Origin: an uncultured Latescibacterota bacterium
GTDB taxonomy: Bacteria > Latescibacterota > UBA2968 > UBA8231
Assembly (NCBI GenBank): GCA_958295495.1
Contig: OY282352.1
Location: 1,674,001-1,738,000, forward strand
DNA: 64,000 nucleotides
Reading direction: 5' to 3'
The translations under genes and the position numbers were made by a program. Positions 44,615-61,121 of the stretch are shown one piece after another; positions within the stretch are counted from its first letter, which is position 1, and each line of letters opens with the position of its first letter. The notes beneath the pieces were generated by a model. The model saw only the letters and a program-made list of their open reading frames with translations. It ran no database searches and was not told where the DNA came from.

Positions 44615-44660
44615 AAAACGACTACGGGCATTGCGCGCAAGTAGCGCAATGCCCGTAGTC
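44615..44660 (-). terminator. Terminator of the minus-strand Cache-type genes
   Basis: A perfect 17-bp stem (44620-44636 with 44644-44660, loop GCAAGTA) is followed on the minus strand by GTTTTTGG. Only its right half was copied into the tandem repeat at 45360, so the second gene copy lacks a terminator and probably reads through into the first. Confidence 0.8.
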
Positions 44661-44684
44661 TATGGACCCGCTTCGGGGTTGTCT

Positions 44685-45272
44685 CTACTTAAAGCCGCTT
44701 TTTAGCTGGCCCCAAGCAGTGTGCTCAACCGCCGTCATCTCATCGCTCGCAGGATAAAAGCCAGAACCAATCATCAACTCTTGCCCAAAGACGTTGAGCG
44801 GAGCGGCATAGCTCACCTTAGGCGAGCCGTTTTCTTCATCGCCATCTACGGCCGGATTGTCGAAAAAATACTCGACAAAGCCGCCCCCAGCGGCTGCCGC
44901 ACTGATCAGCTCTTGCACTATTTTGACGCCGTTGATATCCTCGAGATCAATTAGGTTTTGGCCCTCGAGGCTTTCATCAGCCCCGTGAAAGATGCCGAGC
45001 CCTGTGGTAGTGAAAACGAAAAGATAGACCGAGCCTTTGCTCCACTCGCCTTCTGCCCTGAAGGTATCAAAAGAACCCAACGCCTCTGCAAGGGAGGTAA
45101 AGCCCTCCACCACCGACTTTGCTCTCAGGACAAACGCTTGCAAAGTAGCCCGATCTACCACGTCGCCAGCCGTTATCTCGCTGTCTTGGGCAAAGGTCGG
45201 CCCGGCACCGCAAAACAGGCCCGCCAGCCCCAGCACACACGAAAAACGCATAATGAACTTGCTCCGCTGCAT
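44685..45272 (-). CDS. Secreted Cache-domain-like protein, copy 1
   Basis: The product of about 195 residues has a signal peptide (MRFSCVLGLAGLFCGAGPTFA) and a single Cache-type sensor fold, with LQAFVLRAKSVVEGFTSL (long helix), GSVYLFVFTTTGLGIFHGA, LEGQNLIDLEDINGVKIVQELI and a FVEYFFDNP ... YAAPLNVFGQELMIGSGFYP strand pair. Such stand-alone Cache proteins are secreted ligand binders. It is almost identical to the gene at 45396. Several in-frame starts (45251, 45272, 45293, GTG 45314) lie in 21-bp repeats; the one matching copy 2 is given. Confidence 0.7.
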   Translation of the reverse strand: MQRSKFIMRFSCVLGLAGLFCGAGPTFAQDSEITAGDVVDRATLQAFVLRAKSVVEGFTSLAEALGSFDTFRAEGEWSKGSVYLFVFTTTGLGIFHGADESLEGQNLIDLEDINGVKIVQELISAAAAGGGFVEYFFDNPAVDGDEENGSPKVSYAAPLNVFGQELMIGSGFYPASDEMTAVEHTAWGQLKSGFK

Positions 45273-45311
45273 AATGAACTTGCTCCGCTGCATAATGAAC
45301 TTGCTCCTCTT
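45249..45311 (-). repeat. Three 21-bp direct repeats carrying start codons and ribosome-binding sites
   Basis: Units at 45249-45269, 45270-45290 and 45291-45311 read, on the minus strand, (C/G)AGCGGAGCAAGTTCATT plus ATG: a GGAG element, about ten bases, and a start codon. The duplicate gene at 45396 has only two such units, and one has GTG in place of ATG. Confidence 0.85.
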
Positions 45312-45323
45312 CACGAGTTGTTA

Positions 45324-45356
45324 AGAAGCGATCTTAAAACTAAGGGGTCGGTTTCT
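45324..45356. repeat. Truncated family B inverted-repeat element
   Basis: AGAAGCGATCTTAAAACTAAGGGG and the next bases match the left end of the complete element at 46014. The match breaks at about 45356, where the second duplication unit begins. Confidence 0.6.
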
Positions 45357-45395
45357 GAAATGCCCGTAGTCTATGGACCCGCTTCGGGGTTATCT

Positions 45396-45983
45396 CTACT
45401 TAAAGCCGCTTTTTAGCTGGCCCCAAGCAGTGTGCTCAACCGCCGTCATCTCATCGCTCGCAGGATAAAAGCCAGAACCAATCATCAACTCTTGCCCAAA
45501 GACGTTGAGCGGAGCGGCATAGCCCACCTTAGGCGAGCCGTTTTCTTCATCGCCATCTACGGCCGGATTGTTGGAAAAATACTCGACAAAGCCGCCCCCA
45601 GCGGCTGCCGCACTGATGAGCTCTTGTACTATTTTGACGCCGTTGATATCCTCGAGATCGATTAGGTTTTGGCCCTCGACACTTTCATCAGCCCCGTGAA
45701 AGATGCCGAGCCCTGTGGTGGTGAAAACGAAAAGATAGACCGAGCCTTTGCTCCACTCGCCTTCTGCCCTGAAGGTATCAAAAGAACCCAACGCCTCTGC
45801 AAGGGAGGTAAAGCCCTCCACCACTGACTTTGCTCTCAGGACAAACGCTTGCAAAGTAGCTCGATCTACCACGTCGCCAGCCGTTATCTCGCTGTCTTGG
45901 GCAAAGGTCGGCCCGGCACCGCAAAACAGGCCCGCCAGCCCCAGCACACACGAAAAACGCACAATGAACTTGCTCCGCTGCAT
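45396..45983 (-). CDS. Secreted Cache-domain-like protein, copy 2
   Basis: The 195-residue product differs from copy 1 at only a handful of positions (for example FSNNP for FFDNP, ESVEGQ for ESLEGQ, VGYAAP for VSYAAP). The reading frame is intact, so both copies may be functional. It is upstream of copy 1 on the minus strand with no terminator between, suggesting co-transcription. ATG at 45983 (MQRSKFIVRFSC) is given; the position equivalent to the last Met of copy 1 is GTG here. Confidence 0.7.
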   Translation of the reverse strand: MQRSKFIVRFSCVLGLAGLFCGAGPTFAQDSEITAGDVVDRATLQAFVLRAKSVVEGFTSLAEALGSFDTFRAEGEWSKGSVYLFVFTTTGLGIFHGADESVEGQNLIDLEDINGVKIVQELISAAAAGGGFVEYFSNNPAVDGDEENGSPKVGYAAPLNVFGQELMIGSGFYPASDEMTAVEHTAWGQLKSGFK

Positions 45984-46013
45984 AATGAGCTTGCTCCGCT
46001 TCACGAGTTGTTA

Positions 46014-46138
46014 AGAAGCGATCTTAAAACTAGGGGGTCGGTCTCTCGCTCGGCTCAAAGCATCGGGGACCGAGGGCGTCTCGCCCTCGAAAAACGCGTA
46101 CCGCAAAGCAGCCCGACAGGGGTTTTAAGAACGCTTCT
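46014..46138. repeat. MITE-like inverted-repeat element, family B
   Basis: The left end AGAAGCGATCTTAAAACT and right end GGTTTTAAGAACGCTTCT are imperfect inverted repeats. The centre holds GAGGGCGTCTCGCCCTC, a palindrome shared with the copies at 53903 and 54023. No coding potential. It occupies almost the whole gap between the Cache and porin genes. Confidence 0.7.
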
Positions 46139-46169
46139 AAGGAAAAATTTGTGAACGTCACGCGATGCT

Positions 46170-53046: not shown

Positions 53047-53904
53047 ATGGACAAAGCAAACTTCACTTGCATCGTCTTCGGCGAGATCCTCTACGACTGC
53101 TTCCCCGACCGCACCTGCTTGGGGGGGGCCTCCCTAAACTTCGCTTGGAACCTGCGCCAGCTCGGCTTTCCCGTGGCCATGGTCAGCGCCGTGGGGCGCG
53201 ACGAACTAGGGCGGCAGGCGCGGGGCTTTCTCCGGTGCGCCCACATCGATCAGCAATGGGTCGCCGACCGGCCCGAGCCTACGGGCACGGTTGATGTATT
53301 ACTCGACGCTGGGCAACCCTCCTATACCATCCGCGCTGGCGTAGCCTGGGACTATATCAAAACTAAGCCCTCGCTGGACCGGCCCCCCGACCTGATCTAC
53401 TATGGCACGGCCGCGCAACGCAGCCCGGCCAATCGTCCGGGGCTAGAGCACTTGCTGGCAGCCAAGCCCCGACATCGGTTTTTCGACGTCAACCTGCGCG
53501 AGGGCTGTTATACGCCGCAGACTGTGCGCTTTGGCCTCGAAGCGGCAACCATTGTCAAACTCAACGACGAGGAATGGGAGGCCGTGCGGGACATCGTCGC
53601 GGTCGCCACACCCGCCGACTTGCTCGCCCGCTACGCGCTGGACTGCCTAGCGATTACCTTCGGCGGCGAAGGTGCCCAACTCCACATTCCGGGGGCTTCG
53701 TGCGCCGCACGGCCCGCACCCGCGTCCGTCGTCGATGCGGTCGGGGCTGGCGATGCCTTTAGCGGGGTTCTGGCCGCCAGCACCCTGCTCGGCACTGACC
53801 CGCAACAGGCCCTCGACTTAGCGTGTGCCGCCGGTGCCAGCGCAGTGCAGCACTCAGGAGCCCATTGTCCACTACCCGAAGCCGTGAAGGCGGCGTTTGC
53901 TTAG
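53047..53904 (+). CDS. PfkB-family carbohydrate kinase (fructokinase-like)
   Basis: The 285-residue protein shows FGEILYDCFP, the LGGASLNFAWNLRQLG sugar-binding start, VGRDELG, and VDAVGAGDAFSGVLAA with the catalytic Asp and anion hole. It is slightly short for the family. The phosphorylated sugar is unknown. It starts seven bases after the peptidase gene. Its TAG stop is formed by the left end of a family B repeat element. Confidence 0.82.
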   Translation: MDKANFTCIVFGEILYDCFPDRTCLGGASLNFAWNLRQLGFPVAMVSAVGRDELGRQARGFLRCAHIDQQWVADRPEPTGTVDVLLDAGQPSYTIRAGVAWDYIKTKPSLDRPPDLIYYGTAAQRSPANRPGLEHLLAAKPRHRFFDVNLREGCYTPQTVRFGLEAATIVKLNDEEWEAVRDIVAVATPADLLARYALDCLAITFGGEGAQLHIPGASCAARPAPASVVDAVGAGDAFSGVLAASTLLGTDPQQALDLACAAGASAVQHSGAHCPLPEAVKAAFA

Positions 53905-54020
53905 AAGCGGTCTTAACACTCGCGTCGGGCCGCAGGGGTCCTTGGGGAGGGCGTCTCGCCCGCACCCCCAAGCCATCTGGGGCCGCAGAGGACGGCACGA
54001 GGGGTTTTCAGACCGCTTCT
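53903..54020. repeat. MITE-like inverted-repeat element, family B, first of a tandem pair
   Basis: AGAAGCGGTCT (53903-53913) and AGACCGCTTCT (54010-54020) are perfect 11-bp inverted repeats. The interior holds GGGCGTCTCGCCC, the family palindrome, and ends GAGGGGTTTTC. There is no coding content. It directly abuts, and partly forms, the stop codon of the PfkB gene. Confidence 0.8.
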
Positions 54021-54022
54021 TG

Positions 54023-54166
54023 GAAGCGGTCTGGAAATTCCGGGTTCGGCCCTCAAGCGCGTCAAAGAGTCTGGGAGCGCGGGCGTCTCGCCCGCGAAAA
54101 TCGCTCCATCCGAGGACCTCTCGACCACCCGGCAACGCGGCTCGACGGGATTTTTAGACCGCTTCT
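54023..54166. repeat. MITE-like inverted-repeat element, family B, second of a tandem pair
   Basis: GAAGCGGTCT (54023-54032) and AGACCGCTTCT (54156-54166) flank an interior with GCGGGCGTCTCGCCCGC. The interior differs from the first copy elsewhere, so the pair arose from two insertions or an old duplication. It ends 30 bases before the amidohydrolase start. Confidence 0.8.
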
Positions 54167-54196
54167 CAACCACTTATCAGCGAAAGGCTTTGCGCC

Positions 54197-61027: not shown

Positions 61028-61121
61028 CGCGCTTCACCCTGCCTTTGGGCAGGACAAGCGAGAATCTAGGGGGGCCTCCTGCACACAAGGGACGGCACCC
61101 TGAGTTCTCAGATGGCTTCTA
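61028..61121. repeat. Decayed repeat with family A core and family B right end
   Basis: 61028-61060 matches 31 of 33 bases of the interior of the family A element at 4338-4370. 61091-61121 (GACGGCACCCTGAG..., GATGGCTTCTAA) resembles the right end of family B. The final CTA is the complement of the stop codon of the aldo/keto reductase gene. Confidence 0.5.

Follow-up and report, generated by a model that had tools for sequence, protein, structure and literature searches.

Two short palindromic repeats stand side by side at 53903-54166 of the window, the 64,000-nucleotide stretch of an uncultured Latescibacterota genome (G000) analyzed here, and the question they raise is whether their shape reflects a selected structure or the ends of a mobile element. 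A first-pass annotation had grouped them with other repeats as "family B". When the window sequence was read directly, the three complete copies, one truncated copy and one relic listed there were all in their places, with two corrections. The second member of the pair is a complete copy as described, but it starts at 54022 and not at 54023, its outermost A now being G. The truncated left end at 45324 is also present, but it is not a separate insertion: the region of a Cache-domain gene is tandemly duplicated (44648-45356 versus 45359-46046), and the element is truncated because the junction of this tandem duplication (44648-46046) cuts it. The features are as follows.

53904..54019 (53903-54020 including the outermost bases), plus strand as set by the core: probable MITE copy 1, GAAGC...GCTTC, with limits taken from the congener empty site
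54023..54165 (54022-54166 including the outermost bases), plus strand: probable MITE copy 2, adjoining copy 1
46015..46137 (46014-46138 including the outermost bases), plus strand: probable MITE copy 3, with ends GATCTT/GTTCTT
53901..53903, no strand: left target copy TTA of the pair, from the congener empty site
54020..54022, no strand: TTG, the target copy that separates the two elements, one change from TTA
54166..54168, no strand: TCA, the right-hand target copy of the pair, one change from TTA
46012..46014, no strand: target copy TAA left of copy 3
46138..46140, no strand: target copy TAA right of copy 3
53902..53904, plus strand: PfkB stop codon TAG, in which TA belongs to the target and G opens copy 1
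45324..45356, plus strand: truncated left end, at the junction of the tandem duplication 44648-46046
61105..61120 (approximate), minus strand: relic right terminal repeat, 1 mismatch to the end pattern
46074..46086, plus strand: core palindrome GGGCGTCTCGCCC of copy 3
53949..53961, plus strand: core palindrome GGGCGTCTCGCCC of copy 1
54081..54093, plus strand: core palindrome GGGCGTCTCGCCC of copy 2

Genome-wide pattern counts bear out the annotation of family B as a real, dispersed and intergenic family with conserved ends and core and variable interiors. In the whole genome (5,965,472 bases), the end sequence AGAAGCNNTYTNAAAA had 40 exact matches (17 + 23) against 0 + 0 for its reversed control, and with at most one mismatch 35 + 40 against 10 + 6. 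The annotation's alternative, terminators unrelated to one another, does not hold. The core GGGCGTCTCGCCC occurs in 14 exact copies (control, 1). Judged by eye from their flanks, 11 of these lie inside elements with family-B ends, two (L034, L043) have no clear end pair and one (L039) is apparently coding. From 39 candidate rows, 18 elements were kept after removal of alternative pairings of the same ends, pairs judged to be of low identity, truncated or spurious, and one inverted duplicate. They are 88-164 bp long, have no coding capacity and carry matched 16-bp ends; their left and right ends agree at 79 of 90 positions against a shuffled mean of 56.8, an inflated figure, since a match at 11 or more of the 16 end positions was required for a pair to be accepted. 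No description of family B was recognized in the open-licence literature, which was searched by words and not by sequence.

Several other arrangements in this genome were observed along the way. One element, flanks included, is present on contig C1 both at 507112-507256 and, inverted and about 14 kb away, at 521696-521840; at 510467 an IS4-type IS interrupts a third relative. Widely spaced end pairs were considered as hidden autonomous elements and rejected, with no recognizable transposase between the ends among the reading frames inspected by eye (L183, L302, L240, L245). A 1.6-kb unit (L075-L078) is present at four places on C1, near 4501700, 4605000, 2949500 and 1585500. It ends in CTGANGTTACGC, slightly different in one copy, is flanked by 7-bp duplications by eye (TAGATAA, TTAGTAA, TTCCTAA, TTAATAA) and contains a half end of family B. 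Its gene weakly resembles Rpn/PD-(D/E)XK nucleases (TIGR01784, E 0.025, below the cutoff), and the unit is possibly a transposon with a nuclease-type gene.

The history of the pair can be read from related genomes. Its flanks abut in three congeners (G001, G002 and G009), reading GCGTTTGCTTAACCACTT. The empty site itself reads GCTTAACC at L305, L306, L315 and L309, L306 and L315 overlapping on one G002 contig; a second G002 contig (C184) has abutting flank matches, known from match positions only, which brings the empty loci to four. The position of the empty site is the one predicted for a TTA duplication, and the arrangement in the window is CTTA[GAAGC...GCTTC]TTG[GAAGC...GCTTC]TCAACCACTT, that is, TTA[copy]TTG[copy]TCA. 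Two successive insertions into one TTA, with 3-bp TNA duplications and two of the target copies later altered by one base, explain every letter of it. The annotated tandem pair thus stands as two separate insertions with TTA target copies flanking and between them. The frame of the upstream PfkB gene was kept, its stop changing from TAA in the empty allele to TAG, whose G is contributed by the element as its first base. At the same site G004, G007 and G010 carry a short, GTAG-tailed palindrome (L307, L308, L310) and G003 an element with other ends; given these various elements, the site is an insertion hotspot. No second empty site was readable at 46014, where the left flank had no adjacent match in the congeners. 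Among the 18 own-genome elements, equal TNA flanks were found at five and TTA/TAA at another five, and the other eight are at least one change away. The TTA/TAA flanks, at elements 521696, 991540, 1656982, 2361120 and 4191780, are symmetric and not a direct repeat, and the same holds at two IS copies (L317, L323).

A scan of PF01609 loci in relatives yielded an IS with family-B-type ends in G004, G010 and G029. It is 930 bp long and has one ORF, of 268 amino acids from the first listed ATG, with the domains PF13340 (DUF4096) and PF01609 (DDE_Tnp_1); the transposase falls in the IS5 family by NCBIfam transpos_IS5_3 (235 and 248 bits, cutoff 110). The IS copies end in GAAGCYGTCTGAAAA or GAAGYTGTTTTAAAA, and of the seven whose two flanks were read, five carry identical TNA duplications (TAA, TTA, TTA, TGA, TTA), the other two being TTA/TAA. 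Among 37 genomes searched with the transposase, 13 gave any match at 1e-5, and at least 55% identity over most of its length was reached in G004, G010, G029 and G036 only. G000 itself holds only two decayed IS remnants, one of them near a recognizable end, TAAAACGGCTTC. The end-rich genomes G038, G040, G041 and G044 had no transposase match at 1e-5, G044 and G040 being the richest of all with 183 and 133 exact end matches; other or lost enzymes must therefore be assumed there. The window elements resemble the IS in the terminal repeat alone and differ from it in what lies inside, and they carry no transposase gene.

From these sequence comparisons, family B very probably consists of non-autonomous IS5-type MITEs: its members are short and non-coding, with terminal inverted repeats, a target duplication and empty site, and the ends of an autonomous element. 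We infer that the congener IS, or a lost G000 counterpart, moved the window copies. Counting against this reading are the symmetric TTA/TAA flanks at some elements and IS copies, the end-rich genomes that gave no transposase match, and the restriction of the likeness with the IS to the terminal repeat. Locally, family B is an ordinary mobile element of a known kind, and what is new is this member. In the proposed mechanism, the IS5-family transposase made by the 930-bp IS would recognize the inverted ends of about 15 bp, GAAGCNNTYTNAAAA, excise the element and join it to a TNA trinucleotide, which would be duplicated; the G004 transposase would likewise mobilize DNA lying between GAAGCTGTCTGAAAA and TTTTCAGACGGCTTC, with TNA duplication. 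The interior would be passenger DNA assembled from interchangeable hairpin modules. The two ends would be kept matched by the transposase needing both of them, with help from template switching across the hairpin, a replication process described in the cited part of PMC8794818 as homogenizing hairpin arms.

Ends and interiors appear in different combinations. The window interior recurs in G004 (L415) and G007 (L416) between the ends TGTCTG/CGTCTG, which differ from left to right just as those of the G004 IS do; these interiors are 79-89% identical to the G000 copies compared, and L415 is only a few bases away from an IS copy. Related interiors within G000 are bounded by GTTCTT/GTTCTT, CTTTTT/CTTTTT or GATCTT/GTTCTT. 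In G003, the core GCGGGCGTCTCGCCCGC is found within several elements that have unrelated ends, and an automatic test of 18 stretches there recovered both family-B ends in L407 only and the right end in L404. The core palindrome, a module of its own that is shared with elements whose ends differ, is therefore no defining mark of the family.

The first-pass annotation had taken the conserved palindrome to suggest a selected structure. On that reading the copies would be a conserved structured RNA, for example one acting in mRNA stability or termination, or an sRNA, with selected pairing and incidental mobility, which we now regard as improbable. Against 200 dinucleotide shuffles, the three window copies do show excess folding on either strand (z -2.4 to -4.2), which speaks for it, but in the secondary-structure check the excess was gone after 20 bp had been cut from each end (z -1.0, -0.7, +0.6). 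The interiors alone fold no better than shuffles, and the terminal repeats are therefore the sole source of the excess folding. Two-sided changes at 11 of 35 predicted pairs among 30 Desulfobacterota elements would also fit selected pairing. A selected RNA strand should, however, show arm mismatches favoring G.U on that strand, and in four oriented clusters (61 elements of related subfamilies, not the window's own) wobble mismatches numbered 195 versus 177, with no strand bias, cluster 3 alone giving 15 versus 3. The ends moreover drift jointly at positions 7-12, behavior expected of transposon ends or DNA hairpins. Within 53903-54166 there is no intrinsic terminator (a GC stem with a T run after it), and Rfam returned a single tRNA from the window, with no family matching the copies. 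A selected RNA structure, as suggested, is unsupported; the ends are the terminal inverted repeats of a transposon, accompanied by target duplications and a cognate IS.

A further point for a structured RNA is that one Rfam family, RF02228 (the Xanthomonas sRNA sX9), matches one arm of related elements. It was found in three of 12 genomes searched, at nine places, seven of them above the gathering score, and all nine matches coincide with the right arm of an element bounded by family-B-type ends, one of which is decayed in some cases; these elements belong to Sulfuricella, Rhodanobacter and Nevskia. The sX9 covariance model had 0 matches in the window copies and 0 in G000. According to the cited part of PMC9029176, sX9 ranks within the top 20 annotated bacterial sRNAs by prevalence, and sX9 genes are up-regulated by copper in Xanthomonas in the cited part of PMC10924375, so that some copies are transcribed. 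Plasmids and phages gave no match to an sX9-like element covering 80% of the query, and phages none at all. In Aeromonas, Comamonas and Yersinia the sX9 matches are partial and core-like, without family-B ends in the contexts read. Such sX9-like centers with different ends (L431, L432, L433, from Aeromonas, Comamonas and Yersinia frederiksenii records) suggest that centers are exchangeable; those of Comamonas and Yersinia lie between two genes of one pathway.

Mobilization by another enzyme was also weighed. The hairpin architecture and the adjacent copy pairs would suit a REP/RAYT-type element, moved as a single-stranded hairpin by a Y1 tyrosine transposase, and the GTAG-tailed palindromes at the same site (L307, L308, L310) resemble the GTAG REPs in the cited part of PMC3733652. 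The duplicated TTA speaks largely against this. The family's element length of 118-147 bp, its 15-bp ends and its target duplication of 3 bp, together with the IS5 DDE element that shares these ends, make it very unlikely. The abundant IS4-type IS of G000 is present in about 30 PF01609 copies, one of them inside the right end of a family-B copy, but its ends (CTAAGTACACGACAGTAA) are different and its target duplications longer; refuted by ends and target length, it has next to no chance of being the mobilizer. Non-autonomous IS5-type elements remain our preferred reading.

Elements with similar ends occur well beyond this genome. A GTDB-wide scan for complete elements gave at least 120 stretches, and 118 elements (114 distinct) were extracted from those listed, most often 144-145 bp in length. 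By record titles, with phyla partly translated, the hosts among the matches listed include Desulfobacterota, Gamma- and Betaproteobacteria, Bacteroidota, Planctomycetota, Calditrichota and Chloroflexota, and further Latescibacterota, Gemmatimonadota, Acidobacteria, Verrucomicrobia, a Parachlamydiales bacterium and others; in viral contigs no full element was found. Left and right ends agreed in 405 of 472 comparisons among the matches listed, against 232.2 after shuffling that ignores relatedness, and no matching filter had been applied at the positions compared. Position 12 followed the target. Among the matches listed, elements with C there in both ends had TA/TA flanks in 72 cases and equal TNA in 0, and those with C in neither end had TA/TA in 2 and equal TNA in 16 (Fisher p 7e-16); with one vote per interior cluster the counts were 19:0 versus 0:7 (p 1.5e-6). 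Outside this two-by-two table are 28 of the 118 elements (22 with other flanks, 6 with mixed ends). The pattern points to two transposase classes with different targets.

Tentatively, all of this may belong to one pan-bacterial superfamily of ~145-bp hairpin MITEs, a possibility we rate somewhat below even. Its ends and interiors would be separable, the end pair would drift while staying matched via template switching, position 12 would track both target and transposase class, and some listed sRNAs, sX9 among them, would be element arms and not sRNA genes. If so, one interior could pass between transposases.

An unexplained repeat can now be read as a double insertion with a named enzyme class, and a testable rule linking one end base to the target site is offered. 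There is also a warning, in that covariation alone, the usual sign of a functional RNA, arises in transposon hairpins too, and such elements overlap at least one sRNA family of Rfam. Worth following are the rule linking end and target, the exchange of ends and interiors, and the overlap with sX9.

Among known systems, the GTAG and CGTC REPs are short palindromes of the general kind seen at the same congener site; in the cited part of PMC3733652 they are 20-40 bp, tagged at one end and without 15-bp ends, so that the window family is unlike them in size and ends, and GTAG REPs are associated there with tyrosine transposases and CGTC REPs with no dedicated one. ERIC, Correia (NEMIS) and RUP elements are, like family B, intergenic and shorter than 200 bp, with inverted ends and hairpin transcripts, and RUP ends match those of a resident IS630 in the cited part of PMC2229807. 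They differ in having other ends, a TA target and an IS630 partner, whereas the window family has TNA and an IS5 partner. The sX9 model is matched by the right arm of related elements but not by the window interiors. A likeness to the IS1031-like group of the IS5 family, whose target motif is TNA, lies in the transposase domains, the 930-bp IS, the single ORF and the 3-nt target. A three-nucleotide target is given as common in the IS1031 group in the cited part of PMC2516522. From an IS1031-like IS the window elements differ in carrying no transposase gene, and what they have in common with it is the ends alone.
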